Below, one piece after another: positions 23,054 through 63,737 of a stretch of 64,000 nt of DNA; within the stretch, counting starts at the first letter, position 1, and each line of letters opens with the position of its first letter. The notes beneath the pieces were generated by a model, which did not search any database, was not told where the DNA came from, and was given only the letters and a program-made list of their open reading frames with translations. The position numbers were made by a program, and so were the translations under genes. This stretch comes from Holothuria scabra (Eukaryota > Echinodermata > Holothuroidea > Aspidochirotida > Holothuriidae). The stretch is taken from the NCBI GenBank assembly GCA_037179385.1, contig CM074179.1:75381719-75445718 (forward strand), written 5' to 3'.

Positions 23054-23153
23054 CACACAAAAGGGAAGCCATACCTTGGAGGAAGCCTCAGGATTGAAGA
23101 CAGAGGGAGAAGGAACTCTCAGAAATCGTTGCTTAGCTTGGGGACTGGGAACG
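23054..23153 (+). CDS. Candidate internal exon, unrecognised gene (exon a)
   Basis: Acceptor TTACTCTTTCTTCACAACAG, then 33 codons and one base, then the donor GTAATT. The frame that starts directly at the acceptor contains KPYLGGSLRIEDRGRRNSQK and then SLLSLGTGN. It is basic and serine-rich, with an R-R-N-S site of the kind basophilic kinases use. It leaves in phase 1 with a G, which joins GA at 36296 to make a glycine codon and keeps the frame open. A second frame is also open, so the reading frame is inferred mainly from this junction. I do not recognise the protein. Confidence 0.5.
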
Positions 23154-23499
23154 GTAATTTTCTTAATTTTTTTTTTCTATGTAGTTAAATCATTAAATTT
23201 CAAGTAAAATAATATAGGAATTAAAAAAAAAAAAAAAAAAAAACACATTGAAATGGAATTTTGAGTTTGCAGAATTTACATAAAAGATATACTGATTTTA
23301 CGATCATCACCCCATATACATTTTTGGTCAGTTGGTATTTAAATTTTCAATCGACTGATTTGAATGAATGACGCTCTTTGAATGAAATCAAATTTTGAAA
23401 ATTCAAAAGATGGATAGTAGCTCCCATTTAACATGACCAGGAGAAGCATTAATCTGGTTGCACATTAGGGACACTGTATGCTCACACCAGGGTGCTCTC

Positions 23500-23785
23500 T
23501 TAAAGACAATATTCAAAACCCCAGACAATTCCAGTTCTCCTAACCTTAATAACTTACCTCTAGCCCCACCCAAAACTGTTTAAACCTCACCCTCATTCAG
23601 ACACAATTGTCGCAGGGTATACCCTTCCCTTGGTGAGCATGGTCCTACTGTAGTCAGAGCACTTTCAGTTCAGGCTGTGTTTTATGACCACTTTTTTTAA
23701 TTTGATGTCAATTAAAAAAGACAATTGAATTTCTGTATACTTCTACTAAGATTTGAAATTTTGGGTGATGATTGATTGCCTTTAA
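23500..23785 (+). mobile_element. R1 MITE, diverged
   Basis: From TTAAAGACAATATTCAAAAC to GGTGATGATTGATTGCCTTTAA. It retains CCAGTTCTCCTAACCTTAA, AGCCCCACCCAAAACTGTTT and CAGACACAATT. It is most like the nested copy at 11336, sharing the GATTGATTGCCTTTAA end, which suggests a subfamily. Confidence 0.75.
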
Positions 23786-24391
23786 GAATTAAGTTTACTT
23801 CTGTATCTGTCAAAGGAGATAAAAACAGTTGTGGGGAGGGAGGGGGAAGGGGGCAGGGAGGGTCTAAGAAAGACTCATTGTAAGAATTGCTACTGTCTGG
23901 AATGAGAGATTTACCAGTATCACTTGGTGAAGCAAAAGTACACATGGGAGAAACCTCCCCTTAGCTCATTTGAAAAATTTGAAGTACCCAAGCAGAAAAA
24001 AAAGATAAATCCTGACATCCACCACTGCTTTTGTGTTCAGTGTCACCAAAGAATACAACCACAATGTCCCTAGTGAGCCAGTCACTGGACATTTCCTGAG
24101 TAGCTTTGTGGATCAATGCACAGACACATTACTCCATTGAACTTGGCTTAATCCATCTTTCCTGCCATGTGCCTGCTATGACAGTTACCAAATTTGAAAA
24201 GTATCTAAGGGGCTTTTCCCAGCATGCACCTTATATACAGTAAATAATGGGAAGCCAGTATTTGGAATTTAATGTAGCACCTGAATGACCTGCTTAGATA
24301 TCCTCAATTTTCTGCAATACTCAGAAACACGTGAGGAGAAAGTTGGGCATGGGCCTCCCAATATTTTTGGAGTTTGTGCCCGTGCCCTGAC

Positions 24392-24740
24392 ATTTCTTCT
24401 TGAGAATGCAACATTGACCTCCCAGTAGGTCAAAGGTGGTGTGGGTATGTGTAACTGCTCTCTGTGTTTGTTACCTGATCTTTGCCCTGAAGTGATTTAT
24501 GCTTTCATTGTGTCCACACTGCGTGAAAATCAATTAACACATACTTGACTGGCCTTTTAGCCAGCCCCAAATGTTATGTAATGTTTTTTGTATTTTGGTG
24601 TATCTGTTTCAACCAATCTATTAATCAGATGTGAAACCTTACTGTATCAAGTGTGTATGTGGTAAGCTTCCTCCTTGAGGTTAAACATTGTAATCTGCAG
24701 GCAGAGAAGAATGAAGTTTCAAAAAGTAAGAAGGGAAATT
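24392..24740 (+). mobile_element. R5 dispersed repeat, copy 2
   Basis: Contains GACATTTCTTCTTGAGAATG, GTAGGTCAAAGGTGGTGTGG, AATCAATTAACACATACTTG, CCAGCCCCAAATGTTATG and the tail CAGAGAAGAATG...CAAAAAGTAAGAAGG. The copies agree over about 350 bp. Terminal repeats are not evident. Confidence 0.7.
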
Positions 24741-24905
24741 TCATCATGCACTTGAAGTTTTCTCCTGCTTTTATTCTAGCTGCAATGATTCTGTTGATAT
24801 TGGTTCTGTAGATTTAACATTCTAATATAAAATGGAGAGGCAGACAAGAGGAAGACCAGTAGCATACTTTTGAGATGATATTTTCCTTTGAGGGGATAAT
24901 TATGC

Positions 24906-25035
24906 AGTCACTACAATATTCTGTATTCTACCATATTTTGTGATTGGTTCTTGATTTGTGAAATTATTTTTGTCAAAGAACTGAATTTTTAAGGAGTAAT
25001 TACCCATTGCTTTACCTTTGATATGTAATTATTGA
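24906..25035 (+). mobile_element. R3 fragment
   Basis: Matches the R3 interior: CAGTCACTACAATATTCTG, TTTTGTGATTGGTTCTTGA and TTGCTTTACCTTTGATATG. Both ends are eroded. Confidence 0.45.
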
Positions 25036-25486
25036 AGGCCAAATCCGTTGGCACCCAAGACAGTCCGATTCTCCTATCCTATTTAATTCATCATTACATG
25101 TTACGCCCGATTTGGCATTCTCTAGCAAATACCTCCAACAGATGGTCTTTTGAAGTAAATAATACTGAGTCAGATACCACAGTACTAGATAATGGCACTG
25201 TGATCCTGCCTGCCTGCCTGGACACACCAGCTCATATCCGTTTACAAAACTTGTGAAGTGTGAATAAACTTTTAAACTGTCAAGTGTCCACCAAGAAAGT
25301 TTTCTAATCAGAGATTGTTCTCAACAAGACAATGGACTGTTCTGTGACAAACTGAGGCAGCTACGCTGCTTACTCATTGCCAGGTGAACTGTGGACTAAT
25401 TAAATAGGATCATCTAACTGATAGTGCATGCTTGATTAGATGGTTTAGTGTAGACAAGCAGAAGGTGCAAACTCAGTGCCCTTCAG

Positions 25487-25850
25487 CATGCCGTGACATT
25501 GCTTCTTGAGAAAGGAACATAGACACCCCAGCAGATCAAAGGTGGTGTGGGGTGTAACTGATATGTGACTTGGTTACATGATCTGTTTTCTCAGGTGATT
25601 TATGCCTTCATTGTGTTCACACTGTGTGAAAAGCAATTAACACATGCTTGACTGGCCTGTTAGCTAACCCCAAATGTTACATAACTTTTCATGTACTTTA
25701 ATATATCTGTTACCGTTAATTAATTAATCAGATGTAAAACATGACTATATCAAGTGTGCGTGCAGTGAGTTTCATTTCCTCCCTGAAGCGATAAGAAGTA
25801 ATCAGGCAGAGAAGGAGGATGTAACAAAAGTAAGAAGGAAAGTTTCATCA
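25487..25850 (+). mobile_element. R5 dispersed repeat, copy 3
   Basis: GCCGTGACATTGCTTCTTGA start, CCAGCAGATCAAAGGTGGTG, AAAAGCAATTAACACATGCT, GTTAGCTAACCCCAAATGTT, then GATAAGAAGTAATCAGGCAG and AAAGTAAGAAGGAAAGTTTC. It is closest to copy 4 at 43228. Confidence 0.75.
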
Positions 25851-25965
25851 TGAGAGAGAACACATCATGATCCCTTTGCACAACTGTGTAAAGCTCATTC
25901 TCATCCAGACACAATCTTACTTTGTTCAGGGTCAATATACAATGACCTCTATTTAAAGGGGCTTA
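25851..25965 (-). mobile_element. Possible R1-related fragment
   Basis: Holds CATTCTCATCCAGACACAAT and TTTAAAGGGGC, seen in R1 interiors and ends, but only over about 100 bp. Orientation is uncertain. Confidence 0.3.
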
Positions 25966-28690
25966 CCCATATGGACCAAAGGCCTATAGGTTTGCTACCT
26001 GGGTCAGTTTTACATGATGTTTTAATGAGAATCAATGATGAAATTGCTTTCTATTTAGGCCTAATACTTCACCAATCTTGGCTTTATTTTCTCCATATTT
26101 GTTTGAACTCCCAATTTTTGCCCAATACCAGACCACCCCCTCCTTGTAAGACTACCTCACTGAAACATAACAAAAACATTTACTGTAGGTAAGGTAAAAA
26201 AAAGGGTGTCAGAGTTACATGTAAAAGGGGTATTAGATGTTCAATGGAAAAAAAGCTTGTAAATTCAGCGGAAAAAGCTTGCAAATATAGTGCATTACAA
26301 GGTTTTTTTTTTGAAGAAGAGGAACCCCATCCTGGTCATCTCCATACATCCCCTTTACCCAAATGGGTGAGGTGCTAGGATTTGTGAAGCTTCTTAATGA
26401 TGTCCTGTCTGATATGTAGTGACAAAGTTTCCTATAGCTTAGTCATTAAAGAAACAACCCATAATGGGCTTATAACTCTTATTATATCCAACGACTTCCT
26501 TTCTTTAATACTCAGTAGTATCTCTCACCATGGTGACATGAAGATGTCAGGCTACTACTCATCTTTAAATAATACGGGAAGCTTTTAATAATTAATAGGA
26601 ATTATGTGTTTGGATAACATCCAGCGGTGTAGCTTATCGACATATTCAGACACTTTTAGAAGCCTGACGTCTGTTTGCTTTGGAGACTGGAATGATAGGA
26701 GGAAGGCCAGAAATAGAACCCCTTCCACCGCAAACCTGCCCAGTCGTATATGACTTTACCTGACCCAGCAATTCCTAATGCTCTTCCTAGGAAGTTGCTG
26801 TTTTCATCTGTGTCCAATGAAATTCCCTGACTGATGACATGGTTTATGTTTCCTGGCACTGCAAGGCATCATGGGATTGTGTACATCTGTAACAGGGTTC
26901 CTGACATAAGTTTGATTTTGAGTCCTTCTGCTTCTCTTCCTAGCTGAAGGGCAGGCAAGGAGGTATGCGATAGTGACTTGTGTGTGTGAGGCTTTGTCTT
27001 TGTGTAAAACTGAGGGTCTTGGAAACAGATATCTACTGTAGGTCTAAGGTAGAATATTTGAAAGGTGTTGGTCATTGCTATCTTGACATTCATGTTTAAA
27101 TGTCACTTTTGAGGTTTTGCATGTTTTACCCTTGATTATCACACAAGAGCTTTGACCTCCAAAAAGTGATTGGGATGTTCCTCTCAAAAGGAAAAATCAG
27201 TACATATGAAAAGTGACAGTAATTACTATTGTGAGATGTTTCATAATGCAAGCAAGCCAATTTTAGGTTTTCACAAACTGAACCTCTGGTGACCTGGAAT
27301 GACCTTTGAACTCCACTGAAAAATAGTATTCTTCCTCTTGAAATCAAAGGTCTATACCCAACAAGGAAAATGTCAGTGATACTATTTGCGATATCTTGTT
27401 ACCAGCCATTTCAAGGTTTTTGCAGTTTTCCTTCTGGTGACCTCGAAGTTTGAAGTTTGCTACTGATGTGATACATTTATACACATAAATTGTCTCGCTG
27501 AATGAGTTTAACCCCCCACCCCCTACCCCTCACCCTTTAAAAAATTAATCCCTTTCAAGGCTTTGTCTGGCTATGGATCTGAATGGCTAGTAAACATGGT
27601 GCCTCAAGGAAACAGTGGATGCTTTTCATATTTGGTATAGAAGATGTTGAGAAGAGAAGCTCCTTTGTTTTTAGGATGTCAAAGGTCATTTTTGGTCATT
27701 AGAGGTAAAACTACTGAAACCATGACATGATAGTTTTTTTTTGGCCAAAACTAAAACTCATCATAGTCATGATGTGTTGGCCACATCATGGCATCCCTTT
27801 TCAAGGAGCAGAATTCTCTAATGGACTAGAATTCTGTCTGACTGCCAAATACGCAATAACTAACTCATGTTCAGATGGCTGCCCTGTGGACAACTACAAA
27901 TTTGAATGCAATGAATGTTATTTCCATGTATTTAACAATCAAAATTACGTCAATTAACTCTTGAAAACTTTTACTTCCTGATTTCAATTAGAAGAAGGGT
28001 TTAAGTTCACAACATGATTTGGTTTGTTAGAGGTACTTGTTCTGAGCATTTTCGTGAAATTTGCATTGAAGTCCTGTGTGGTTCCCAAGATATGAGCATG
28101 TAAACTTGTCACATTTTCAACAAAAAGTGAACTTGAAGCAAGCTCATAAAACATCACATCCTCACATTAATGGGCAGTCTTTTGTTTTTCTTTAAACTTT
28201 ATACTGGATTTTTTTCTCAACAATCCCATATTATTAAAATGTGATTGCATAAGTGGCATGAGAATTTTACAAACTTTGCATCCCCCACAGGGTGGTCATA
28301 TTCCTATTAACTTCAAGGTCAACAGAACAGTCTGATAAAACAAAGGGAAACAAAGCATTCCTTGTCAAATGTGAAGAAGTGATATAAGGTCTGCTGCCCT
28401 CAACTTCACTTTTGAACACAAATCTACTGACTTCATTTACTAATATCTCAAGAAATACATGTCTGATTTGAATGGAACTTTCACCACACTGTGTAGATTT
28501 TGTTCCTCTTTCACATATGAAAATTAAATTTTTGCTTTAACTTCCCCTTCAAGTCCTGTTGTTTAAACTCCTAGTTTGCATAATTTGCCTTTATCTAGAT
28601 TTAGTGTGTGACTTAAAGAGAGCAATACACACAACAGCAGTAGGTTCCATTTTCAAAGATTTTGGCATAACCCGTTCTGGGAATCACCAC
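25966..28690. other. Intron-like DNA without a supported exon
   Basis: One frame at 26660-26745 reads SLTSVCFGDWNDRRKARNRT after CACTTTTAG, but its phases do not fit the neighbouring exon candidates and its donor (GTATAT) is weak. The opposite strand is open there too. Scattered AGGTCA-like words occur near 27290-27700. Nothing else is called. Confidence 0.35.
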
Positions 28691-29004
28691 GGACCATCTG
28701 AGTGAAAGTCAAATGTTCCTGGATCTTGACTGCCCACTGCAGTCTTGTGGGCGCTTGGACAGGGGAGGAGGTCATTGTGTTACCAAGAAAGGGTTTGATG
28801 AGACTGTCCCTGATGTCATCTGCTGCAATTTTTTTTTATTCTGGCGAGGATTCTAAGTATTTCTCACTGTCATTAGTCAGGGTATCAGTGTCTTCTGGCA
28901 TCAGTCTTGTTTTTTGTCATTTGTGGTACACACATATACTACATTGCTACGTCAATGTTGGACTCCCGTGGCTGGGCCCCAGCTGTGAGGATATATTTCT
29001 GATA

Positions 29005-29114
29005 TAAAGGTTGAAGAGGAAGATGAGGGCAGAAATTGAAAGAGAAGAGTTTGACAAGATTCAGATCCGATTGTTGTTGGTAGAAGGAGAGAGATGCATG
29101 CTGCAAGGACCAGG
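29005..29114 (+). CDS. Doubtful exon-like frame
   Basis: A highly charged frame, KMRAEIEREEFDKIQIRLLL followed by VEGERCMLQGPG and a stop, begins just after GATATAAAG. The composition is protein-like and helical, but the acceptor lacks a good pyrimidine tract and the frame ends in a stop before GAG|GTGGGA. It may be a fossil exon or chance. Confidence 0.2.
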
Positions 29115-29710
29115 ATGAGGTGGGAGTGATGCTTACCAGCATCCTCTGAGGTGATGACGTATTTAAGCTGTCACCAGGAAATGACAGGATTTAGGGATGA
29201 GCAGATTATTCATTCAAAGAGAATGAATGGGAATGGGGTTGATTGGTGGAAAAAAAATGTTTATTAGAAATGAGTTATTTAAATTATTTGTAAGTAGTCC
29301 TGCAGTCCGTGGGGACTTGAAAGGTAGAAATATTTTGCAGATTTGACAGCCTGGACTGTTGCAAGAGACATTTGATAACATCAGTTTGAAGAAGTAGGGC
29401 ATGTTAAAAATGTGTGATTGAAATAGGCCTATTATAATGGAATGTTAAAATTGTAGGAATAGTCCATGTCAGAATGTAGGTTGGTTGAAGAGAATGAGGT
29501 TTCATACCTGGTTATGACAGAGAGAGATTGCAGAAACTTTTGTGTACATTCATGTACATCTGACAAGTTTAAAGGGTAAATTTATTTAATCACCCCAGTT
29601 TGGATTAGTGTACTGCTGGCTTGCAAGTGTAATCGTACACCATCACACACCTCAATATCCATATACCTATAGGTATGTGATTTTGTTAGTGCATATAAAT
29701 TTATTGAAGC

Positions 29711-30022
29711 TTAAAGGCCCAGTTCTCTCACCCCACACAGTACCAATTCTCCTAACCTTCTTACTTAAGCCCCTCCCACAATTGTCTGATATTCACCCTT
29801 ATCCAGTCACAATCTCGGTTTAAGTTGCTTCAGGGTGAGTATAGAAAAGCTCTGTGTGTATTAACCAAAACACTCTCAATACAGTTCATGCTATGTAATA
29901 TAAGCTTTGGTAATCTGCATTGTTTGAATTAACTTATAGTCAATCAAAAAGCTGGGCCAATAGAGAGTTTCTGTACCCCCCTACAGGAAGTGTATTTTGG
30001 GTTGAGAGGATTGGCTCTTTAA
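29711..30022 (+). mobile_element. R1 TTAA MITE, full-length
   Basis: 312 bp from TTAAAGGCCCAGTTCTCTCA to TTGAGAGGATTGGCTCTTTAA. It carries the interior blocks CTTACTTAAGCCCCTCCCAC and GTCAATCAAAAAGCTGGGCC. It is closely related to the copy at 31899; both share AAAAAGCTGG in place of AAAGAGCTGA. Confidence 0.9.
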
Positions 30023-30124
30023 TAGAACAGCACACCTACACATAGAACATTCCAACACTCTTTAATTTCTTGAGGGAGTGTGATTTGTAGAACACTTGGA
30101 AATTCTAAAACTCAAGGCCTGGTA

Positions 30125-30205
30125 CTGTACGTATAGCTTGTCCTGTTTTATGATTGGCTCTTGAGAGTCATGTGACAATATTTTCTTCATTGGTTTATGA
30201 AATTT
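30125..30205 (+). mobile_element. R3 fragment
   Basis: Contains the R3 core TTGTCCTGTTTTATGATTGG and CTCTTGAGAGTCATGTGACA. The ends are lost. It directly precedes the foldback element. Confidence 0.6.
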
Positions 30206-30219
30206 TGGAGAGTATGGTT

Positions 30220-31517
30220 TATGGGCGGCCAAAAGGGCAAAAAAGACAAATGGCAAAATATTCATTTTAATTTCAAAAATAAATTTTAAAAGTAAAAAAT
30301 ATTCTAAGTAAAAATATTTCAAAATAAAATGAGCAATGATTACATTTAAGAAAGCAAGCAATACGTATTACGTCCACAAAACAAATTAAAAAAAAACGCT
30401 AAAAGTAGTTATAACTAATCTTAAAATTAACATAATACCGGTTAATCCAAATGAAGTATCAAAGCCCCCTAAGAAATAAAAAATGGAAAACAAATAAAAA
30501 GAAATAAAATAAAAACGCAAATAGAAACGCAATTTTGTGTTTTTGTTTTATCTTGTGTTTGCATTTTATTCCCTGTTATCTTTTTTTTTTTTAATTTAGT
30601 TGGGTTCCTTAATAGTTATTTAAAATCATCTTTTTTTGCCCTTTTGGCGCGCTATAGGTGGCCAAAAGGGCAAAAAAAGACAATTTGGGGAAAAAGAGAA
30701 ACTGCGGAAAAGATGATTAGTGAAAAACAATGAGGGCGTCCTGAGATTGATGGATTCAGAGCAACTATCTCTATAAATATGCTTGGACAGCGCATTAGAT
30801 ATCCAAAGGTGTTGTTAGCTAGTAACACCTCCCTGATCGACTCAGACTGCCCACTGATGTGCGTACTGCCTTGCTACATTCTCCGCAACAAAGGGAGTGT
30901 ATGGCTCCAAGCAAGTCTTCGCGGTGGCTTTAACTGGTTGTGTGGGTTTGGATATCTAATGCGCTTTCCAAGCATATGAATAGAGATAGGTGCTCTGAAT
31001 CCATCAATTTCAGGACGCCCTCATTGTTTTTCACGAATGGTCTTTTTCGCAGTTTGTCTTTTTCGCAAATTGTCTTTTTTGCCCTTTTGGCCACCTACAG
31101 CGCGCCAAAAGGGCAAAAAAGACAATTTTAAATAACTATTAAGGAACCCCAAAAAATTTAAAAAAAGAAAAAGATAACATGGAATAAAATGAAAACACAA
31201 GAGAAAACAAAATCACAAAATTGCGTTTCTATTTGCGTTTTTATTTTATTTCTTTTTATTTGTTTTCCATTGGAGGGCTTTGATATTTCATTTAGATAAA
31301 CCGGTAATGTGTTAATTTTAAGATTAATTATAACTACTTTTAGTGTTTTTTAATTTGTTTTGGGGACGTAATACGTATTGCTCGCTTTGTAAATGTAATC
31401 ACTGCTTATGTTAGTTGTATTTTTTTACTTAGAATATTTTTTCCCTTTAAAATTTATTTTTGAAATTAAAAATGAATATTTTGCCATTTGTCTTTTTTGC
31501 CCTTTTGGCCGCCCATA
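30220..31517. mobile_element. Compound foldback element, ~1.3 kb
   Basis: The ends TATGGGCGGCCAAAAGGGCA and its inverse open two long arms, about 30220-30805 and 30950-31517, that are reverse complements over nearly 570 bp with small indels. They surround a ~145 bp loop. The flanks carry ATGGTT (30214-30219 and 31518-31523), a likely target duplication, though its length is ambiguous. A second set of ends of the same family, GGTGGCCAAAAGGGCAAAAA, sits inside each arm at about 30658 and 31093. No transposase frame. Confidence 0.88.
30658..31098. mobile_element. Inner foldback unit nested within the 1.3 kb foldback
   Basis: Bounded by GGTGGCCAAAAGGGCAAAAA and its inverse TTTTTTGCCCTTTTGGCCACC, with arms reading GGGCGTCCTGA-ATTGATGGAT toward the centre. 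Just outside lies TTGCCCTTTTGGCGCGCTAT, so each junction is itself a short palindrome. This suggests one copy inserted into another of the same family, or duplicated ends. Confidence 0.65.
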
Positions 31518-31898
31518 ATGGTTCACCTATGCAATGTTGAAAGATGCTCGGAAGCAAAATAATTAAGTGAGATCTGACTGTTTGTTTCAAAATAAATTTG
31601 GGGCGATAGCTTTTGCCCAAGAGTAGGTTTGGGAGAGTCTAACATTTGTGGAGGAATAAAAGTGTTTTTTTGAAAAGAAAACAGGTGTGAGGGGTTGGGG
31701 AGGGGATTAACCCAGGATTGGGTAACCAGAGGGTCAGTCATCTAGCCAACAAGTGTGTAGGGGTGAGGGAAGGGGTTTGGGGATGGAAGTATGGATTAAA
31801 TTCTGATAAGGTTGGCTTCATGTGTCTGGAACTCTGGCTAATCCATAATGTTTGGTTGTAGGTTTTGAAGAATTGGTCCCAATTCTTTGAGGGCAATA

Positions 31899-32206
31899 TT
31901 AAAGGCCCAGTTCTCTCACTCCAAACAGTACCAATTCTCCTAACCTTCTTACTTAAGCCCCTCACACATCTGTCTGAAATTCATCCTCATCCAGACACAA
32001 TCTCAGTTTATTGCTTCAGGATGGTATAGAAAAGCTCTATGTGTATAATCAATCACTCTCAGTAGGCTACTCTTCATGCAGTATAATATAAGCTTTGGTA
32101 GTCTGCATTGTTTGAATTAACAGTCAATCAAAAAGCTGGGTCAATAGAGAGTTTCTGTATCCCCCTACAAGAAGTGTAGTTTGGGGCAAGAGGGTTGGTC
32201 CTTTAA
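31899..32206 (+). mobile_element. R1 TTAA MITE, full-length
   Basis: From TTAAAGGCCCAGTTCTCTCA to GGGTTGGTCCTTTAA. It has all interior landmarks, including CAGTCAATCAAAAAGCTGGG. It carries a small insertion, AGGCTACTCT, near 32070. Confidence 0.9.
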
Positions 32207-32737
32207 TGCAAACTTGTACAACAGTGGAAGAATTAGCTACATTTGCTGAGTTACCGGTACTAATTCACTGTACCAATCATGGCCTCATTACAAATTTGTA
32301 GAAATTTCCACATGGGACAACAATTTGGTGACGTACAGCACGACTGAATTAGATCCTTCCCATACATTATTACTGCATGATAAATTCATTATTTGTATGT
32401 TTAATGTTTCAGTGTAATGTAAGGAAGCAATAAGAGGGCAATTATTCCATTAGTTAATAATTCTAACCTCCCTGAATGTACTCACAAGGACACTGAGCCA
32501 GTACTGGTCTAGACTACCAAGAATGCCATAGCATGAGGACATTGTCACAATTTCAAAACCAAATGTCATAGCGTCCCAAAAGTTCAATACTCTTTTCAGG
32601 GAGGCTGTACTAATGACAAATTCAAACATTGATAGGGAAAATATAGGGGCCCCATGCTAATTACCCGTGAAATGGAGACCAAGAAAATGCTTTTAAAACA
32701 TTAGTTGATACAGGTTCTACGGCTTTTTAAAAAGTCC

Positions 32738-32960
32738 TTAAAAGGGCAAGAGCAGTCACCCCAACTTGAAGTAGTTTAGTACACTGTCATGTTTCATGAT
32801 CGGCTGTTGGGAGACATGAGACATAAATGCACCTACGTGATATTGAAGTTGTAAAATATAAAGGAAACAATGAAAAATTTTTTGAAGAGAAATAGGAAGA
32901 CAATGTGACATTCTGCTGTTGCTTCAATGGTTAATTTGGGGGACTGCTACTGACTTTTAA
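32738..32960 (+). mobile_element. R3 TTAA MITE, full-length
   Basis: Starts TTAAAAGGGCAAGAGCAGTC and ends GGGGGACTGCTACTGACTTTTAA. The ends are imperfect inverted repeats (AGCAGTC). The interior has CATGTTTCATGATCGGCTG, the source motif of the minisatellite at 50959. Its last TTAA is shared with the next element. Confidence 0.85.
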
Positions 32961-33405
32961 AGGTTTTTACTGGAGACAAAATTCATTTGATTCAAAATAT
33001 GCAGAACACGTTTCTCATTCAGAGGGTGAAAACTGCAGCTAAAAAGCATGCATTTGGGAGATATTTTTCGGAGTAATGCATTTTTTTCTGGAGATATAGG
33101 AAATATCTTTTTCTATTATCTAGTTTCTGGAGATTATAGGGAATCTATGATGCCTTGCAGTACATTAATCTGACATTCGATTCAATTAATTTCTGATTTT
33201 CAGATGCTACTTTAGTGCAGTAAATATCAAGGAACATACTTTTGCTTTATGTTGTAGGGCAATTGCTAAATCTACTGGAAAAGACACTCAGATATTCCAG
33301 TTGTAGGCCTATCAAATACCAAGGACAAACAGGACAATCAATAATAAAGAAAAACAAAAGGAAACTGAGGCAAAACTTGTGCAAATATTAAATAAGTGGC
33401 TTTTT
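32957..33405 (+). mobile_element. R2 TTAA element, copy 2, 3' truncated
   Basis: Starts TTAAAGGTTTTTACTGGAGA on the terminal TTAA of the preceding R3. It retains GAGGGTGAAAACTGCAGC, GCAGTACATTAATCTGACAT and AATAAAGAAAAACAAAAGG. Similarity fades after AGTGGCTTTTTTG, and the right inverted repeat is not seen. Confidence 0.7.
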
Positions 33406-36870: not shown

Positions 36871-36999
36871 GTACAGTAGGTATACATCTGAAAAAAATAC
36901 CCTGTGCTCAATCTTGTCAAGAACTTTCCATTTGAGCATTAATTTGTGAATGGCCATGAAGGTTGACATTTGATAGAAGTTTATCTCAGAATGAACTGA

Positions 37000-48601: not shown

Positions 48602-48610
48602 TTTCTTCAT

Positions 48611-50406: not shown

Positions 50407-50958
50407 AATTCTCATCATTGCTATGTACTTTCTTGAAAGTCCAAATAGCTCTTAATCCAGCTAGTGTACAGCTAAACCAGCTAAACCATTCCTGTCTCGT
50501 TAACTTTGCCCCTAAAATTACCCAACATGCTATTGAACAGAAAATACCTTAAATGGCACTATTATGGGCCATGCCTGCCATATATTCCTGTAGATTTTAG
50601 GCTTGAGTGTTCATGAAAGTGGTTTTATTATCTAGAATTGTAAACACTCTTGTAATAATCCCTGTTTAGAAACTTTGTACTAACGTCCATCTGTAAAGGT
50701 ACATTGGTGTCTTGATGAGACCTTCTACTCACAGAATTTGGTTACAGCTCTGCGAGTGTTGTCCAAAGTAAAGTAGATGGATACAAAATTTGTATTCATG
50801 AATTTTGAAAGATAGTTAGCAACCTGGACTTATTTTTGTTGATTACCTTTTCATTTTCAAGAATAACAAAAAATGTCCTAATAGTGAGATGTAATTGGGT
50901 ATTTTTACAGTAGACCATTACACTTCAGAAAACAAAAGTGTGACAGACTGTCCTGTTT

Positions 50959-51462
50959 CATGATGCTCCCAAGAGTCATGATGCTCCCAAGAGTCATGAT
51001 GCTCCCAGGAGTCATGATGCTCCCAAGAGTCATGATGCTCCCAGGAGTCATGATGCTCCCAAGAGTCATGATGCTCCCAAGAGTCATGATGCTCCCAAGA
51101 GTCATGATGCTCCCAAGAGTCATGATGCTCCCAAGAGTCATGATGCTCCCAAGAGTCATGATGCTCCCAAGAGTCATGATGCTCCCAAGAGTCATGATGC
51201 TCTTAAGAGTCATGATGCTCCCAAGAGTCATGATGCTCCCAAGAGTCATGATGCTCCCAAGAGTCATGATGCTCCCAAGAGTCATGATGCTCCCAAGAGT
51301 CATGATGCTCCCAAGAGTCATGATGCTCCCAAGAGTCATGATGCTCCCAAGAGTCATGATGCTCCCAAGAGTCATGATGCTCCCAAGAGTCATGATGCTC
51401 CCAAGAGTCATGATGCTCCCAGGAGTCATGATGCTCCCAAGAGTCATGATGCTCCCAAGAGT
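50959..51462 (+). repeat. 18 bp minisatellite, 28 tandem units
   Basis: 504 bases of CATGATGCTCCCAAGAGT. Variants are few: CCCAGGAGT in units near 51004, 51042 and 51418, and CTTAAGAGT near 51202. The + strand frame translates as MLPRVM repeats and the - strand as TLGSIM repeats; 18 is a multiple of 3, so frames stay open, and this is not evidence for a protein. The flanks match R3 (GACTGTCCTGTTTCATGAT on the left). Confidence 0.96.
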
Positions 51463-51479
51463 CATGAAACCATATTTTT

Positions 51480-53033: not shown

Positions 53034-53034
53034 G

Positions 53035-53228
53035 GTAAAAGGGCAAGGGCAGTTGCCACAAACTAATTTTCTTCCTATTTCTCTTTGAATTATCTTTCAT
53101 AATACTTTAGGACTTTCAAGGTGGATCATGCAGTTATTACTCATGAGTTACGACTCTCAGGAGCCAATCATAAAACAGGACAGTCTGATTCACTATTTCA
53201 AGTTAGGGTGACTGCTCTTGCCCTTTAA
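53035..53228 (-). mobile_element. R3 TTAA MITE, reverse orientation
   Basis: Right end GGTGACTGCTCTTGCCCTTTAA; left end TAAAAGGGCAAGGGCAGTTG. The interior has CGACTCTCAGGAGCCAATCA and TAAAACAGGACAGTCTGATT. Confidence 0.8.
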
Positions 53229-53233
53229 AGCAG

Positions 53234-53441
53234 GTTGAGGATGCAGTGTTCCTAGACAAGTATGAACAGCTGAGTAATCAGAATTTCAACTGGGCAATAG
53301 ATAAGGCTGATCTGAGATATAAAATGCTATACTGCTCAAACTCCCCCGGCAGCAGGTCCACTCAGAAAAGGAATAGCAATGCAGATATGCAAGGACTGAA
53401 GGGAAGGATGAAGGGGTGCTCAGGCTGGCAAGGGAGATAAT
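53234..53441 (+). CDS. Doubtful exon-like frame after R3
   Basis: The R3 right end supplies a pyrimidine tract and AAAGCAG, followed by an open frame VEDAVFLDKYEQLSNQNFNW, then further polar residues to a stop at 53441. The first 40 codons look protein-like. Usable donors are weak (GTCCAC, GTGCTC). If real, it would be a case where a mobile element provides an acceptor. Equally it may be chance. Confidence 0.22.
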
Positions 53442-53867
53442 TAATGACTCGGTTTGGTCTGTTTGAAAAGTTTTATTGAGCCTATGACAACATGGAGACA
53501 GTTTGTTGTTTAAGCTAGGAGGGGGGGACTGCATGCATGGACAGATATTATCATAGCATGGAGTTGATGTGCTTGTAGTCTGGGGGACTTGAAGTTTTTT
53601 TTCGACTTAATTTTCAGGAGAGACAAAAATCGTTGCTTTGTAAAGTGCTTGTCATGAAGGTCTCAATTAACCTAGACTTAAGACTTGGATCCTGATAATT
53701 GATTTTATGTTATCTCAGGCTTTCTCTATGTCTTTTTATTCCTTCTTGATTCATATTTTGCTTTTCCTCTCTCCCCACTGTACATACCAAGCATAATTTA
53801 TATCAGTTGATCTTTGGGTAGCCTTTCATCATAACCCTAATTGATCACCTGTGATTTTCTTTTTCAG

Positions 53868-53909
53868 AATGAACTGTCCATGAAGCCACACTTTAAAGCA
53901 CCCCCCTAG
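53868..53909 (+). CDS. Possible alternative terminal exon
   Basis: Very strong acceptor (GTGATTTTCTTTTTCAG) followed in phase 0 by NELSMKPHFKAPP and a stop. The next candidate exon (54772) is also entered in phase 0, so the two could be alternative 3' choices for one upstream donor. No polyadenylation signal is assigned. Confidence 0.22.
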   Translation, partial: NELSMKPHFKAPP

Positions 53910-54771
53910 CACCCTCCATACATTATGTCACAAGAAAATCATTAGCCAGGATTTCCCTTTTCATTTCTTGGTGACTTCCATTCATCACTGTTTGATCACC
54001 ATGATATAGCTGTCCTTTTATAAACCACGCCAAAGAAACTCATCCTTCCCCATTCATTCCTTGAGATAATCCCTTTGAGTCAATACAACTGCACAGGAGG
54101 CCCATGGGTCCTTTTGTACCCGGTAGATGGGCGGTATGTCACACTACAATGGGTGCAAATAGGGCCATTCAGCTTGTGAATGAGTGCAGAGGCTGGGTGC
54201 TATGTGTAGAGTATTTGTCTGACAGTAGCATATGGTGTTTGTGTTTACTCATTACACTTAGTGCGTAGGTTATATGTATGATGTCTTGAGAACTGAGGAG
54301 ATAACATACACGCTCCAGTAGCTTTGAGGTTAAATAGAACCATTACCCTTGATATGTGGGCTGATAGGCAAGCAAATACACAAAAAAGTTGAGAAATTTC
54401 TCCCTCTTCATGAGGTCAGTGCATTTTTGCTTCATTTGAAAAGGGGAAAAAGGGAAAACCTGGAGAAATTTTTTCTTTCTGAGTAACTGGATGAAGGGGC
54501 TGATAGCAACTCTTGCAGTATTTTTGAAAGTTTGCATTTTGAACTGCAAGATGATTTCTGTAGAAGAGGAAGGTTTAACTTATCTCCTATCATTGCAAAG
54601 CACTTTGTAGCAGAATCCATCTTGGAACACAAGGAATATTTGGGAGCGGCGGATTTTGGACGGTGGAGAATTTAGTGTTCTATATTGGGAGAGGAAATTT
54701 CAAGGACATATGTTACACGTCCTTGGGAGATAACCTGCGTGTTCTAACAATATTTCTACAACACTCCTCAG

Positions 54772-54919
54772 CCATATAATCTGAAGACTAAAGAAGAGTT
54801 TGGTTTGCCTCCCGAGGAGCTGTATCCGGAAGAGTTAGATTACAGCAATGACATCCATTTACCCTGGCTGCAGGATTTAATTAGTTTTGTATGCAAATTG
54901 GACTTTATTTGCATGAATG
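54772..54919 (+). CDS. Internal exon of an unrecognised protein (exon e), best supported
   Basis: Acceptor TATTTCTACAACACTCCTCAG, 148 bases, consensus donor GTAAGT. Only one frame is open: PYNLKTKEEFGLP, PEELYPEELDYSNDIHLPWL and QDLISFVCKLDFICMN, then one base. An acidic, proline-containing start is followed by a hydrophobic Trp/Cys-containing helix-like segment. Codon composition and splice signals make chance unlikely. It is entered in phase 0 and left in phase 1, and joins 56899 in frame (G+TG = Val). I do not recognise the family. No signal peptide or clear membrane segment is visible in this piece. Confidence 0.75.
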
Positions 54920-55269
54920 GTAAGTAAATATCAATGTATTGTGATATTTTTAGAAGTGTATAGGCTAATGAAGCTGTAAGGACCTTGAAACCATAGCATG
55001 CCTTGTGTGAACTGAAAAAAACTAATTAAAGGAGTTGTATAATGCACTATATCATCATGGCTTTTAAATGAGTATATAAGATGGTAGAATTTTTAGTGGT
55101 GATGAATAGGTTACTTATAGTTATGAAAAATTTAAGAATTGGTCAATGTTGGTATTTTAAACTATTTTACATAGCATACTCAAATCTTGCTGAACATATC
55201 CAGTATGAGGCTGTAATAGACTCAGTTCAGTGCAGTTTATTTCCACATGCAATTAACAATATCAGTACA

Positions 55270-55288
55270 GTAAGGGGGGGGGGGGGAG
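55270..55288 (+). repeat. G-homopolymer patch
   Basis: A run of about 14 G residues, similar to those at 3178 and 17960. Likely unstable in sequencing. Confidence 0.85.
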
Positions 55289-56898
55289 ACTGAAGAAGCA
55301 GATTGCTCTTATGCAGTTCTGGTATATGCAGAAGATACGATGAAGAAAGTTATGCATGATATTTACATGTGCTGTAGGACAACACTATCTCAGTAGTGTT
55401 AAATGTAAAGTTTTCATACTGAGCATTTAAAACAGACAGCAGCTCATGTATAACATTATGGGTATAAAGAGGAATAAATGGATATATTAGGCCTATAATG
55501 TTCTTCCAGTTTGTTCAGACAATTTTCAAAATACTGGAGTTACAAAAGGTTCTGGGAAAGTTTTTTGGTTTAAGTCATTTTGTAGCACGAGATATAAATT
55601 TCCTCAACAAAATGACACGATTCAGGAGAACTCTATTCCACAATCCCCAACTTGTCCTCTCATTTTGTAAGATGTCCTAACATTGGGGCCCAGGACCATT
55701 TTCAACAGCAGTTTGTTCCACACTTTGGAGGGCTCAATATTTCCTTACTTTTGTATCCACAGAATGCATGGTCGATGAATTTTTTGCTAGATGTAGGTGT
55801 ACTATTTGCAGGAAGATAATTCAAAGCTATGAGTTCTTGTGAATTAGCAATCATAAAGTATTTAAGATGAAGAAGAACGCTAAATGCTACTGTAGTTTGC
55901 GGTCTGGGTCAGCTGTTTGCATTAAAATCTTACTCAACTATAGCTACATTGTGCTTAACAGAAAACATGAACTTGGATAACTTCATGTACAGTAGCTCAT
56001 AGCAAGCCACATCTCCCTATATGGAAAAAAGAATGCTTATTCCTTTTAATCCCTCCCCCTATATTTAATCGAAAATAGGCGGCATCCTAAAAAGTGAAGG
56101 AGAAAGGGTGAAAAAATTGAGTGCTATTTTCTAGCCTGGTAGCAAAATATTCAGCTCAAGATGATATATGTACTGCACTCCCCTGGATTTCCAGAGAACT
56201 GAGCCTACTGGTGGGTCACCTCTGTGTTTACTAAAAATGAAATTCTTTCAAACAAGGGAAATTTATTTAATTCATGATGCATTATTCCTGTAGAGATAAC
56301 AGCTTTTGACCAGGAGGTTTGATACATCCCAAATTAGATTTTAAACCCAAATTTGTGTCATAAAAATGTCAGAGCTATAAAGGTTGCCATGACAATGACT
56401 CAAGCAATGATTGGGGTCAATGTTAGAAGCAGAGTTCAGAGAAATCCAGTGGTAATATAGCGTCCTTAGTGACAACAGGTCCACTTCAGAAGTGTGGTGT
56501 GTAAGATGTGCTGGTATAGCAAGGTACCATTTAATTGTGGGAAACATTGTTTAGTACATCCTGCATTGGCAGAGGTGTGTGGCAATTTATTGGAATAACA
56601 TCCTGTGCAGTTTTCTTTCACTTTTTGAAATAATCTTTGGATTAACAAGTTGTTTTGGGAAAAGATATTTGTACCAGTTTGTCAGAATATATCAGTATTC
56701 AAGTCTGGAGGTTGTTTACCACTTACAGTTGTTTACAATAGTCAATACTAATACTGCTTGGTGAGGAACCATACATATATGATGTATGATCTTTGAAGAT
56801 GTTCTGTGGGAAATAACCTGTGACTGTATATAGCTGTATAGCTAGGCTGTCACATAAAGATGGAGATTGAAAAAAAGTCTGTCTTTGCTTTGATAAAG
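55289..56898. other. Intron between exon candidates e and f
   Basis: AT-rich. Short frames on both strands, none with paired splice sites. Confidence 0.35.
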
Positions 56899-56945
56899 TG
56901 CTGACTAAAATGATGAATTTCCAGTTCTGGGAGAATTTTGACATG
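56899..56945 (+). CDS. Small internal exon candidate (exon f)
   Basis: Acceptor GTCTTTGCTTTGATAAAG, 47 bases, donor GTAAGG. After two bases the frame is LTKMMNFQFWENFDM, leaving in phase 0. The entry phase matches the phase-1 exit of the exon at 54772-54919, and the exit phase matches the phase-0 frame at 60520. It is short, so the case rests on two good splice sites plus phase agreement on both sides. The aromatic-rich sequence is compatible with a helical domain. Confidence 0.5.
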
Positions 56946-57382
56946 GTAAGGACTTTTTGTGTTGTTGGACTTGATAAATTTCTCATGGCTGCGTTTTTAT
57001 TTCACATTTTTTTTTCTTTTTTCATTTTTGTGGAGGAAATCATTTTTGTTTTTTCACTGTTAGGGTTTCCTGTTCTCTGGAAAAGGAAAAGATTTGATGT
57101 GATTGGAATACTTCCAGATGTCTGCTTGAGATAAATTGTTGAATTTTTTGTAGTTTTAAGACAGTATTATTTTCCAGTATTAGCATGGTTGGATTGCAAG
57201 CTGTATACATGTGCTTGGTGCTTCCTGGTTTGGACTTTTGGCAGGGAGTTCTATTTGGTGGAGTTTTTGAGCCTCTATCATTGGATGCATGCAACATTTG
57301 TTGATTATTGTGCTGGAGTTGGTCTTTATGGTCTTTATTTTTGTCTGAGGAGTATTGACCTGTAAGAAACAGGTAAAGATTA

Positions 57383-57783
57383 GGGGCCCGGTCCACAAAG
57401 AGTTACGCACAATCTTAAAGGCCCTGTTCTCTCACCCCAAACAGTACCAATTCTCCTAATCTTCTTACTGAAGCCCCTCCCACAATTGTCTGAAATTCAT
57501 CTTCATCCAGACACAATCTCAGTTTATTGCTTCAGGGCGAGTATAATTTATATAATCAAAACACTCGCAGTACCGTACATGCTGTGTAATATAAGCTTTG
57601 GCACTCTGCATTGTTTGGAGTAGCTGTCAGTCAAAGAGTTGAGCCAATTGAGAATTTCGGTACCCGGGTACCAAAACTGTAGTTTGGGGTGAGAGGTTTG
57701 GCCCTTTAAATTTGATTTACTGTTGACTTAAGTATGGGTAATCAAACTTAAGATTGTGCGTAACTCTTTGTGGAATGGGCCCC
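57383..57783. mobile_element. Outer MITE with 36 bp inverted termini, carrying nested R1
   Basis: The left arm begins GGGGCCCGGTCCACAAAGAG and runs to GTTACGCACAATCTTAA. The right arm is its near-perfect inverse, ending CTCTTTGTGGAATGGGCCCC. R1 occupies 57415-57709. Without it the element is about 110 bp. The target duplication is not clear. Confidence 0.85.
57415..57709 (+). mobile_element. R1 TTAA MITE nested in the outer MITE
   Basis: Starts TTAAAGGCCCTGTTCTCTCA and ends TGAGAGGTTTGGCCCTTTAA. It sits exactly on the TTAA that belongs to the outer element's left arm (CACAATCTTAAG), the expected TTAA target. Confidence 0.92.
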
Positions 57784-60519
57784 AAGAGTGATTACTGTAA
57801 CTATGATATATTTTGCAGAAAATGTATAAGGAGCCTTTAGGTGTAATGTACTTATGTAAAAGTAAAATATGAAAATTTGGAGCACTGAATAGAAATTAGG
57901 ATTGTAATATTGATAAACGGCTGCAAGAACATACAAATAGGTTCAATGAAGACATGCTCGTAAATGTTAGAGTGGCAATTGCTCTTAAAACAATCATCTG
58001 GTTTAGTAATAATCTACCTACAACTAGAGAAAAGAGTGTTCACTGCTGTTGGTAGATCCTGCAGTAAATACTATGGACCCTAATTATTAATATGACTTTT
58101 CCAAACTTTTTTTTTTTGGTGGGTGAGGGGGAACAGTAGGGGGTGGGGACATGGGTGGGCAGATTTATTAGCATTTGGATATAACTCATCCTAAAATAAA
58201 AGATATAATACGTAATTCAATATGCTTATATGCTTTTATCGATTTAAACCAACAAAATATGGACTGCAATAGTACTTTCAAATTAATGATGTGTTTAAGT
58301 CCGAGAGGTACTTTTTGTGTGCAGTATGAGTTAGGTATAAAACTTTCTTTTACACCTTTGATCAAATTATTTACAGTAGGTCCTAAAGGTTGTGGTTACT
58401 ACCTCAAAATATTCATGTTGTGAAATAGGTAAAATAAAAACATGTTGCTATGAGGGGGATAAAGTTACACATAGCCAGGATATGGAATAAAGAAGAACAG
58501 AAGCGAAGATACAGTAGGCCTACTTATTTAAAGTCTTGATAAAAATTGAATCAAAGGAAAATTGTTAAGACTTTATTGACTTTCTTTAAACTTTTCACAG
58601 GAAGGGAGGGAAGGAAAAACACAATAGACCAAGAATTGTTAGGCCCCTCATCCCCCTCCCCCCATCAAATAGAATTACCAAAGCATAATGCAAACTAGCA
58701 TATTTTTCCCCCTGCACAAAAGTGTCCCATACACCCCTACTTCCCCATTGAGAGCTGCAGTGCCTTGTCAGGCATGAGTCTGCCTTCCCTAATTGATTGG
58801 AAAGTTACCTCAGTCATCCATTTCTCTCCCATTTTGATAGTACCTGTCCTTCGAGATCATTCTCTGTTGCAACATATCCCAGTACTGAAATAATATTGAC
58901 CTTTTAGCAAACTCCCTCTTGTCCCCCAGTCTTTATTTTTAATGACTGCATCTTCTCTGGCCCATTTCTACCAACAAGATTTTCCTTTTATTTATTTAAG
59001 TAGAGCATGATTTAATTCTTTTCACCTTGCAAGGTCCCTCTTTGTCATTCACAGCTTCAAGCTGACTTTATTCTCTACTCTCACTTCCGATACGAGTCAT
59101 AAATATCCCATGTTGCGTGAATGCTTCTGGCCCATATTTGCTATTCTTCCTGCAGCCTTGTAGGTACAGTACCTTATGGTAGGAATGTAAAGGCTATCCC
59201 TAGCTAGAATAAATTTTATATCCTTCAAGAAAGTGTAACAGCTGATCATACCCGTACACACTCATAGCACATGAAAATGTGGGTTAATACTGGTAAATCT
59301 GCAAAGTGTCCTGTCGTACAAACATGGTATCCGACTGTTTTCTGTAAAATCACCTAGTAGAATCAATCTCCGAGTTCCAGCCATGCCCATTTGGACCTAG
59401 AAATATTTTCAAACTCTAGTCTGTAGCAAAGTTCCCATCATTTTCTGGTTTTCATATTGTTAGCTAATTGCATGAGTTTTACTTGGTTAAATTTATCACC
59501 TGACAATACTGTATGTCCCCAAATTTTTATGAAAGAAAGGTTTTGCACTTTAAGTTGAAGTAAAAATTACCTTAACAAAGGCTTAGAACTAATTACCTGC
59601 AAGTCTATTTCTGCAAATTTGTATCATTTTGCATTTTCTCTCAATGGAAAATGGACACCACTCCCACATAACCTCCTCCACAGGCAGTAGTCACCTGTAA
59701 TCATCCCCCCTTCCCCTATCCCAAATTTCAAATTCAGGCCATTGGCTTGCTTTACAATATAACATCTATTATTTCAAACTTAAAGGTAAGGAATTGATTT
59801 GGGGGGAGGGGTATCTTCAAATATTCCCTTCTTATAAAGCAGCAGTCAATCATGACATAAAATTTGTTCCCAAAGCCGTGTTTTTGTTTTCCTTAAAAAT
59901 GAGGGGAAGGAAGGGACAGGCAGCTACCAGACCCCTTCCTCTTAAACCTATGGAGTAGGTTCTTGTACCTTGCAAAAATGCCTTTCAAATATCATCCTTG
60001 ATTTGACAGCTTGGTTTTTTTTCCTCCAGCTGTTGAATTATTTTATTATTTAAAACCATTGTTTTATAGACTTTGCAGTGGATCTTTTTCCTCATATTTC
60101 ATTACACAGGATTATGGGAAGGATGTTAGTGTGTGTTGTATTTTGCCATAACAAAGCCCTATCCAAAAATCTTTTGTAATTGCTAAAGGTTCCAGAGAAA
60201 TTGTTATGAAGGATGTAATGAAGGCATTGTAAATGTCATTCTGAAGATGTGTAACTACAATTGGAAATTAGAAGTACCCCCTCATTTTCATAATGGCATT
60301 AAATTTTGCAAGGCATTATGCAGTGCAGTATATTTTGAAATGAAAAAGCTAGCACATACAATGAATTGATCTAGTGTTTACAATTGGGAATTAAAATACT
60401 GAATAACCATCTTACCCAGCATCCAAAATATACAAAAATTAGAAAAGTGGGAAGAAGAAGAAAATGAGTGAATTGAAATGGTTTAATAGGCCTTACACGT
60501 TTCTTTCTTTTCTATACAG
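57784..60519. other. Intron-like DNA without a supported exon
   Basis: T-run near 58108, C-rich patches near 58655 and 59706. Frames are random in composition. Confidence 0.35.
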
Positions 60520-60570
60520 TATCACTGGGTATGTTGTCATCTTGAGTGCTCACACCTTCCCAAGTGTGTG
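60520..60570 (+). CDS. Cys/His-rich exon candidate (exon g), 3' end uncertain
   Basis: The strongest acceptor in the window, CACGTTTCTTTCTTTTCTATACAG, opens a phase-0 frame YHWVCCHLECSHLPKCVV that stays open to a stop at about 60690 (including TAVRVATDSHLRIGPGHYSQ). It joins the phase-0 exit at 56945. Several donors are possible: GTGTGT after 60563 (phase 2, which would fit 63630), GTGACT after 60570, and GTCCAG after about 60609. The Cys/His spacing (C-C-H-x2-C-x-H-x3-C) could bind a metal, but no known finger is matched. Confidence 0.45.
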
Positions 60571-61124: not shown

Positions 61125-61706
61125 TTAAAGGCATATTCTGGAGACAAAATTTGTTAACTTTAAAATTAGCAGAAAAATTTTCTCTTTCAAAAGGTGAAAA
61201 CTGCATTCCAATGGCTCATAGCGTTCGGAAGATACAAACTTTTTAAGTATTGCAAATTTTTCTTGGGATTTGATGCATCATGGGAAATCTGTGATGTCAT
61301 TGTGGCACATTAATTTGACACTGCATTCAATTTATTTATAATTATGATGCCCCTGCAGGAGACATTAAGGAACATTGTTGGTTGTGCCCTACATATGGTA
61401 AAGGGTAATGCTAGATCTAGAGGAAAAGATATTCAAAAATTCCAACAGTATCAAATTTCAAGGACAAACAGGATGTTCAATTATAAAGAAAAACAAAAGA
61501 AATTTGAAGCAATGTGCCCACATTACATAACTTTCTGCGGCTTTGTTGAAAGGCAGAGGTATTTTTAAACAAAAATAACTCATCTTTAAAGTGAAATATC
61601 TTGAGTTAGGTAAATGGTATTGTGATAGGGTTTGAAGGACAGGGTGCAGAATACTTTTGTTTTTATTACAAGACAGAGGTGAAAAGCCACCAGAACATGC
61701 CTTTAT
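61125..61706 (+). mobile_element. R2 TTAA element, copy 3, without internal R1
   Basis: Starts TTAAAGGCATATTCTGGAGA and ends GCCACCAGAACATGCCTTTA, giving a ~17 bp inverted pair. The interior runs straight through ACTGCATTCAATTTATTTAT to AATTATGATGCCCCTGCAGG, where copy 1 has its R1 insertion. It therefore serves as the empty site. Frames across it are short. Confidence 0.85.
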
Positions 61707-61932
61707 GTATGGACATTATGTCCCCAACATCATTTATGATAAAATGGATGTTCCTCCTCTGTCCCACAAATTCTATTCATTTCCATTCTACTGTCCTTTG
61801 CCTTTCAAATTTTCACAGATATTTAACAACACTTAAAAGTTCAGCCTTAGGTCTTAGAATTTGAGTTGATCCCCTCCCCTTCTCTACCACCCCTTCCTAA
61901 AAATACATATGAAAATAAATACTAAAAAGCAA

Positions 61933-61949
61933 AAAAAAAAAAAAAAAAG
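61933..61949 (+). repeat. A-homopolymer
   Basis: About 17 A residues. No retroposed sequence is evident upstream, so I do not interpret it as a poly(A) tail. Confidence 0.8.
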
Positions 61950-62141
61950 AATAAGACAAGGAAATGTCCCAGCAATTCCAAATAAGTAGGTATTTCATAG
62001 TCATGTACAACAGAACCTGTCTGCAGAATTGGGGGCGATACGCTCTATTTAACAGGAAATTTCCTAACTGGCTAACAATACAAGGGCAACAGCAGCCAAT
62101 CAAGAAACACTGTCTACCCATATGTTGTGTACAGGTCCTAT

Positions 62142-62402
62142 GGTTAAAGGGCAGGAGCAGTCATCCCAAATTGAAGAAGTGTAGTAGACTGTCCAGTTTC
62201 ATGATTGGCTTTTGAGAGTCACCTGACAATGGTTTTTCTCTTCAAATGTGAAATTTACTGTAACTGCTTGGTTTACCTTGAATATGCAACAGTTAAATCA
62301 TAAAATGTAATGAAAGATACTTTGAAGAGAAATAAGAAGAAAATTGTGCTATTTAGCTTTTTTTTTGAAAATAAGTTTGGGGGGACTGCTCTTTACCTTT
62401 AA
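62142..62402 (+). mobile_element. R3 TTAA MITE, longest copy
   Basis: 261 bp from TTAAAGGGCAGGAGCAGTCA to GGGGGGACTGCTCTTTACCTTTAA. It includes GACTGTCCAGTTTCATGATT, GGCTTTTGAGAGTCACCTGA and AGATACTTTGAAGAGAAATA. It shows the family's full structure. Confidence 0.88.
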
Positions 62403-63629
62403 GTGATATTGAAACTGGGGATGGTTTTGCTTGGGGCCATTGCACAAAAATATAGGCCTACATTTTGTAAATAAATTGTTGCACCAGTATCTTTGCAATG
62501 TTGCTATTGATATAGAATTTCAACAAAAGAATAAGACTTGAAAATTTTGAGACACGCATTGGTTCAAAACAGCTACATAGACCCAAAATGCTGAGCCAGC
62601 TGAGCATAAACATAAATACGTATTTGAATCTGCAATTAAATCTACATTGAACTTAGGAAATTTTCAGGCAGCTTTAATTTTATTTTACTAATTTATTCAA
62701 AGCAATTTTGTAAAATGTGGCAGTGAAAGCCTTTTCTAACTTGGAAAGCTTGGGAAATCCTTTCAATGATAAAAGTACTCAGCCTCAGGTTAAGTATAGG
62801 CCTGGTATCATGAATTCATATTAATTAATGCTGCAGGCAATTGTACTGTAGGCTACTCTTTGACTTGTGGGCTGTATAGTGGGTTTATAAAACGCTTGAC
62901 TGTGTTTACTGTTTAAATTCCAATAAACATTTCAATTACTGTTGATTATTTTTATTGATGCAATGTCAATGTTATGGTATTCCATAGTGTCAGGTATGTC
63001 TGGTATTTCGTATGTCAGGTCATAATTGGGACACCTTGTCTGCTGCAAATGGAGGGCCAGTATGGATAGATTGTGGGACACTGTGACACTGGTACTTGGT
63101 GATGAAATTGTGTCCTCTCAAGAAGTTTTCAAATAGGTAGCTACTGTAAAACTTTGTAAGATGTATTTTGATATAGAGGGTATGAAATTATTAATCGAAG
63201 CCCGCGGCTTCGATTATAGGATCTCCAGACTTGCAGGGGTGATTTCCCACCTGCTTATGTGACTTGGCCTCAGAAACATTTTCTTATCTGTCGTATGAAT
63301 TGACACGCAATCACAACAAAATTTGAATTGCTTATTGTCTTAGACCGTGAAGCAATAGAACTTTTTTCAAATGTGTGGAAGCTTTCTTTCCCGTTTACTG
63401 TACATATTATATTCTCATTTGTCCCTCCTCTCCCATCAGGGAACAACAATGTTGAGATAATGTCATAAGGAATGAATTATAGCCAACAAAAAAAGAAAAA
63501 AAAAATATAAAAATAAATAGATGAATAAAAAAACTTAAAATCCCTGAGTTCTTAAGTTTTTGTCACATTTTTTTGTATTCTTCAAATTACCTCAAGTAAT
63601 GACAAATTTCAATTTTGTCCCTGATGTAG
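62403..63629. other. No supported exon
   Basis: A small inverted pair, GAAGCCCGCGGCTTC, at about 63199 and an A-rich patch at about 63485-63535. Otherwise unique. Confidence 0.35.
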
Positions 63630-63737
63630 TTTGGATCTGTTGGCATGGCTTCAAGTTGCTAAGCCCCACTCCATCTGGGAGTTTATCCCAGCATGTCCTT
63701 TTTACACATGTCTGTCTGATGTACAGCAAGTCATTAA
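63630..63737 (+). CDS. Candidate internal exon (exon h)
   Basis: Acceptor TTTCAATTTTGTCCCTGATGTAG, 108 bases, donor GTGAAG (moderate). After one base the frame reads LDLLAWLQVAKPHSI, then WEFIPACPFYTCLSDVQQVI, and leaves with two bases, so it is 2-2 symmetric. A stop just upstream in this frame forces the acceptor position. Aromatic and Cys-containing, protein-like throughout. A competing frame is also open. It fits exon g only if that exon ends at 60563. The gene would continue past the right edge. Confidence 0.48.

Follow-up and report, generated by a model that had tools for sequence, protein, structure and literature searches.

RIPOR/FAM65, the Rho family-interacting cell polarization regulator, is an animal gene that helps to control the Rho cell-shape switch. 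FAM65A is reported to bind active RHO via its HR1 region and CCM3/MST kinases via its C-terminal ARM region (PMC5201024), and Arg151, Leu152, Gly155 and Ala156 of RIPOR2 are reported to be important for RHO binding (PMC8741841). Ser21 of RIPOR2 is reported to be a PKC/AKT site that fits 14-3-3 motifs (PMC6141708, PMC8741841); phosphorylation is reported to free RhoA from Fam65b, the phosphorylated form being bound by 14-3-3 (PMC6141708). RIPOR is already known and annotated in other echinoderms. In the open-licence literature searched, nothing was found for RIPOR in sea cucumber, nor for the start of the family's full name together with sea urchin, and FAM65 together with echinoderm returned, judging by title, only work on human tissue.

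The window analysed here is a stretch of 64,000 nucleotides of the sea cucumber Holothuria scabra (contig CM074179.1, 75,381,719-75,445,718), in which an earlier note had proposed a split gene of eight short + strand segments that it could not assign to a family. We find that the proposed gene is very probably the 5′ end of a RIPOR/FAM65 gene, lying at the sole RIPOR locus found in this genome. The “unassignable” gene can be named, on the strength of PL48, HR1 and its homologues. The window is indeed crossed by a split + strand gene with long introns. Of the eight segments picked by eye, however, just two were shown to belong to it, and one proposed join is borne out.

To follow the gene, 100 kb were added on either side of the window and the resulting 264 kb were scanned for exon-like segments; extended window coordinates are used for positions beyond the window. 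Most RIPOR exons are situated some 41 to 78 kb past the window's end, on the + strand. The next shared exon is at 105247-105410, and a 22-exon chain is consistent in phase from 36414 (phase 0) to 105247 (phase 0) and on to a stop near 141,485, including two micro-exons at 114333-114356 (24 nt) and 115222-115250 (29 nt). The reading frame is open over about 945 residues (946 with an exon end at 135750, 945 with a GC donor after 135747, which is preferred because it yields a residue present in the 868-aa protein P0003). Over 869 columns, the 22-exon model and P0003 share 96.9% identity. A 20-exon version matches Pfam PL48 (PF15903; E=1.3e-83, 281.3 bits against a cut-off of 31.4) and HR1 (PF02185, a region of RHO-binding type; E=2.7e-8, 34.1 bits against 33.1). 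As for a C-terminal HEAT/ARM region, its HEAT_2 match, at 17.0 bits, falls under the cut-off of 27.7, but the C-terminus aligns with annotated RIPORs.

Of 7,994 candidates scored, 436 are homologues of the 20-exon product at E<=0.001, RIPOR/FAM65 proteins among them. The top five among the best 120 of these 436 are P0003 (90%), Diadema (56%), Amphiura (55%), Antedon (48%) and Anneissia (46%), and the homologues named as RIPOR include the last four genera and others. When P0003 was compared with the 1.19 Gb genome (31 contigs), all 18 matches listed at E<=1 fell within the RIPOR locus, one of them being a weak match at E 0.22 with three stops. A second genomic place, on C23, was rejected as a chance match (30% identity, one internal stop, E 2.2). 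P0003 has no bearing on the N-termini discussed below, because it begins inside the 105247 exon.

The locus resembles RIPOR1, RIPOR2 and RIPOR3 (FAM65A/B/C) in its PL48 and HR1 regions, in exon order and in an N-terminal R..SFAGF site. On the other hand, it is the single locus found here, and it contains two large frames, C and D (below), that may provide alternative N-termini. Similarity to annotated echinoderm RIPORs is gene-wide. Isoform X2 of the crinoid Antedon mediterranea (P0006) has a short N-terminus of the same type, MFYLGR...SNSFAGFRSD, joined to PL48, with 48% identity across the chain. In isoform X1 of the urchin Diadema antillarum (P0004), the same core follows a long N-terminus; this N-terminus shows a resemblance to the end of frame C, but most of it does not align.

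Within the window, the evidence for coding sequence centers on two segments. A 168-aa query made by joining the segments beginning at 23054, 36296, 44341, 54772 and 56899 was compared with 32 candidate proteins of 92-294 aa, of which two (P0001 and P0002) were found at E<=10. P0001 (HOLleu_04077 of Holothuria leucospilota) matches 23054-23153 plus 36296-36414 with 67 of 79 aligned residues identical, unbroken through the junction, the final six positions of this alignment belonging to a wrongly joined segment. P0002, encoded on a contig of 1,901 bases, matches exon 36296 as well as an in-frame extension upstream of it. Neither protein matches 44341, 54772 or 56899. By this comparison, 23054-23153 and 36296-36414 are genuine coding exons, spliced exactly as in the H. 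leucospilota protein, which confirms the proposed join from 23153 to 36296. The first of them would be an internal coding exon of N-terminus A (HTKGKPYLGGSLRIEDRGRRNSQKSLLSLGTGN), entered in phase 0 and leaving 1 nt, with site scores of 2.3 (acceptor) and 3.1 (donor); nothing convincing was found upstream of 23054 as an exon for the N-terminus of P0001. The second, which ends in phase 0 and is matched by P0001, P0002 and the crinoid P0006, would be common to N-termini A and B. The basic Ser-rich stretch that had been remarked on (RRNS, RRPS, RTSS) is the gene's real N-terminal region.

As a chance baseline for the segment scores, we used 20 simulations of the 64-kb window by a first-order Markov model, with a single strand scored in each. 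Among the scored segments, only 36296-36414 stands out: it scores 19.7, and no segment of at least 19 occurs in any of the 20 copies. The real + strand has two such segments, the other being the frame of an 18-bp minisatellite at 50974-51504. Exon 23054-23153 scores 6.8 in its true frame, which is within the chance range, so that it is marked as real by conservation alone. A score of 10.1 was obtained for 44341-44430; segments of at least 10 number 2.65 on average in the simulated copies (maximum 5), compared with 6 on the real + strand and 4 on the real - strand. The scores of 54772-54919 (7.3) and 56899-56945 (5.5) are likewise unexceptional, with 12.85 segments expected at >=7 and 23.8 at >=5.5. 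The remaining two are lower still, 60520-60570 scoring 2.4 and 36777-36870 scoring 1.4, the lowest.

The sequence from 36415 to 64000 (+ strand) would be the start of an intron reaching to the shared exon at 105247. This intron, of 68.8 kb, contains the segments at 36777, 44341, 54772, 56899 and 60520. An unseen exon had been expected after 36414 on account of a break in phase, but none is needed when the next exon is 105247, since both sides of the join are in phase 0. The join is suggested by phase and by the proteins of relatives, several of which are themselves predictions; the crinoid P0006 joins the two parts directly.

The segments at 44341, 54772, 56899 and 60520 found no support and, by their scores and by the lack of relatives in the lengths searched, look like chance. 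Open frames with acceptor-like and donor-like sites are indeed present, as had been described, at all seven segments for which both ends were given. It is conceivable, but improbable, that these four form a separate new gene nested in the RIPOR intron. The segment at 54772 offers 49 protein-like residues between usable sites, and the regions 44000-44800 and 54400-57200 match only their own genomic place, so that they are not obvious repeat copies. However, their scores are those expected by chance, the phases from 44430 to 54772 do not chain, and a peptide joined from six segments has no Pfam match. The four segments joined found no relative at E<=10 among nine candidates of 341-1085 aa; together with the search of 92-294 aa, in which 44341, 54772 and 56899 found none, these are the lengths covered, and relatives of other lengths would be missed. 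As far as could be tested, the Trp/Cys-rich, helix-like part attributed to 54772, 56899 and 60520 lies outside the product, and nothing was found to support the joins 36870-44341, 54919-56899 and 56945-60520. UNC79/UNC80 and other families were dropped as candidates, the 54772 and six-segment peptides having no convincing match among solved structures and the six-segment peptide no Pfam match, and weak matches to isopentenyl-diphosphate isomerase among solved structures (E 0.06 and 0.18) were set aside as chance.

Sequence making up about 14.3 kb of the window occurs again somewhere in the 264 kb examined, and no proposed segment is covered by such a copy (the eighth being taken, as a guess, to be 63650-63737). 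There was no Rfam match in the window at gathering scores.

Still less likely is that 23054 and 36296 make up a short gene like HOLleu_04077, apart from RIPOR. In favour of this, the annotation of P0001 gives a hypothetical protein of 209 aa that stops short of PL48. Against it, a single protein, the crinoid RIPOR P0006, has both this N-terminal sequence and PL48, the FAGF motif is positioned alike in the RIPORs of vertebrates and hemichordates, and the phases at 36414 and 105247 fit. A single gene made of all eight segments, running from a Ser-rich start to a Trp/Cys-rich end, is almost certainly wrong: its sites and frames exist, some of its joins keep phase and 54772 has a GTAAGT donor, but the direct join in the crinoid and the fit of 36414 to 105247 bypass its later parts, the scores of those parts (36777 included) are within chance, and the two joined-segment searches gave relatives for 23054 and 36296 only.

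Returning to the RIPOR gene, several N-termini would arise through alternative starts. N-terminus A would be the 23054 exon spliced to 36296. N-terminus B would begin at an ATG at 36142 or 36244 and read through the exon's own acceptor, so that 36142-36414 (+ strand) is probably a first coding exon used as an alternative. Positions 36276-36295 hold the polypyrimidine tract and the acceptor AG of exon 36296 (acceptor score 5.0); the conserved frame, open from 36079 to 36441, passes through them, so that in N-terminus B they would be coding. From the ATG at 36142 on, P0002 is identical to this frame at 61 of 89 residues, and in a translated search the match extends somewhat upstream of that ATG, possibly because untranslated sequence is conserved or because the start lies earlier. 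The crinoid P0006, which starts with MSRLSTASISNLAMFYLGRLQDFSG and continues with SNSFAGFRSD and PL48, matches the frame from the ATG at 36244 through the AG at 36295, with 49 of 114 residues identical over a stretch that takes in the join to 105247; a translated search also gives this match. The 36296 exon thus appears to have two roles, that of an internal exon behind 23054, seen in P0001, and that of a first exon.

Hybrid first-internal exons, a known kind, are single exons used both spliced and, when extended upstream, as a first exon. Exon 36296 would be like them in its double use, which is inferred here from proteins only. We tentatively propose, with a confidence that falls a little short of even, that this is an ancient dual-use exon of echinoderms, in which the bases of the tract and acceptor also code for a conserved peptide, which reads FGSLFFYYIG here and SNLAMFYLG in the crinoid. 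Whether the N-terminus has a 14-3-3 phospho-site would depend on the choice between this exon and one or two other, large first exons, and this switch would have been kept since the ancestor of crinoids and sea cucumbers.

Two large frames are candidates for those first exons. Frame C (67493-70132), with an ATG at 67493 and a donor after 70132, is a probable further alternative first exon of RIPOR: its end together with 105247 matches isoform X1 of Diadema antillarum (P0004) at 61 of 150 residues, about one third of this stretch being the shared 105247 exon. Because an AG stands directly before its ATG, frame C may instead be internal, with an untranslated exon ahead of it. For frame D (84829-86358), the coding score is high and the donor is a GTAAGT in phase 0, but that it is another first exon of RIPOR is a guess; in a single comparison, with Anneissia P0007, it showed no homology. 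N-termini A, B, C and D would each be able to splice in phase 0 to 105247. The RTSSFAGF site would be present in A and B and absent from C and D, and the choice of start would then decide whether this predicted Rho-binding adaptor can come under 14-3-3 control at that site. This is an invertebrate RIPOR locus at which N-termini with and without a Ser21-type site seem to arise from separate starts.

The codons for RTSSFAGF lie at 36367-36390 (+ strand) in exon 36296, and the motif's serine aligns with Ser21 of rat RIPOR2, the site described in the literature, within an N-terminal R..[ST]FAG. The position of RIPOR2 Ser37 is occupied by Arg. Among the RHO-binding residues of RIPOR2, Gly155 and Ala156 are kept and Arg151 and Leu152 are replaced by Lys and Val. 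Within the first 400 residues, R..[ST]FAG is found in 115 of the best 120 homologues listed, which are mostly vertebrates and not independent cases. The listed homologues that lack it include P0003, P0004, P0005 and P0007, which start differently (P0003 is from the close relative, the other three are from named echinoderms); the fifth, P0015 from a mollusc, has RSKSFYAG.

When the first 32 residues of P0001 (HOLleu_04077, the 209-aa Holothuria leucospilota protein that matches two 5' exons of RIPOR) were searched in this genome, no match was found near the window, and the weak matches detected at four places (L024, L025, L026 and L027; E 0.003 to 0.09, identity 65-77%) all lie on other chromosomes. 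Thus, this N-terminus may be repeat-derived or mispredicted. Upstream of the window, one locus (L019) carries two good exon-like segments on the + strand, at -22024 to -21938 and -20513 to -20419 (roughly 22.0 and 20.5 kb from the window's start, respectively), that perhaps belong to another gene.

Within the window, the top exon score in the scan for exon-like segments was assigned to a minisatellite at 50958-51467 (18-bp unit, about 28 copies), which maintains long open frames on both strands. Short frames resembling LLTFLL.PLPQLSE recur at three window sites (2428-2524, 48617-48735 and 50129-50220), and a related frame lies at about 72,021 in coordinates extended into the flank; this recurrence suggests an interspersed repeat. 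Tandem arrays occupy 16696-17555 (unit of about 145 bp) and 39543-40059 (unit of about 115 bp). At 15537-16257, an (AAT)n array runs perfectly through roughly 240 copies.
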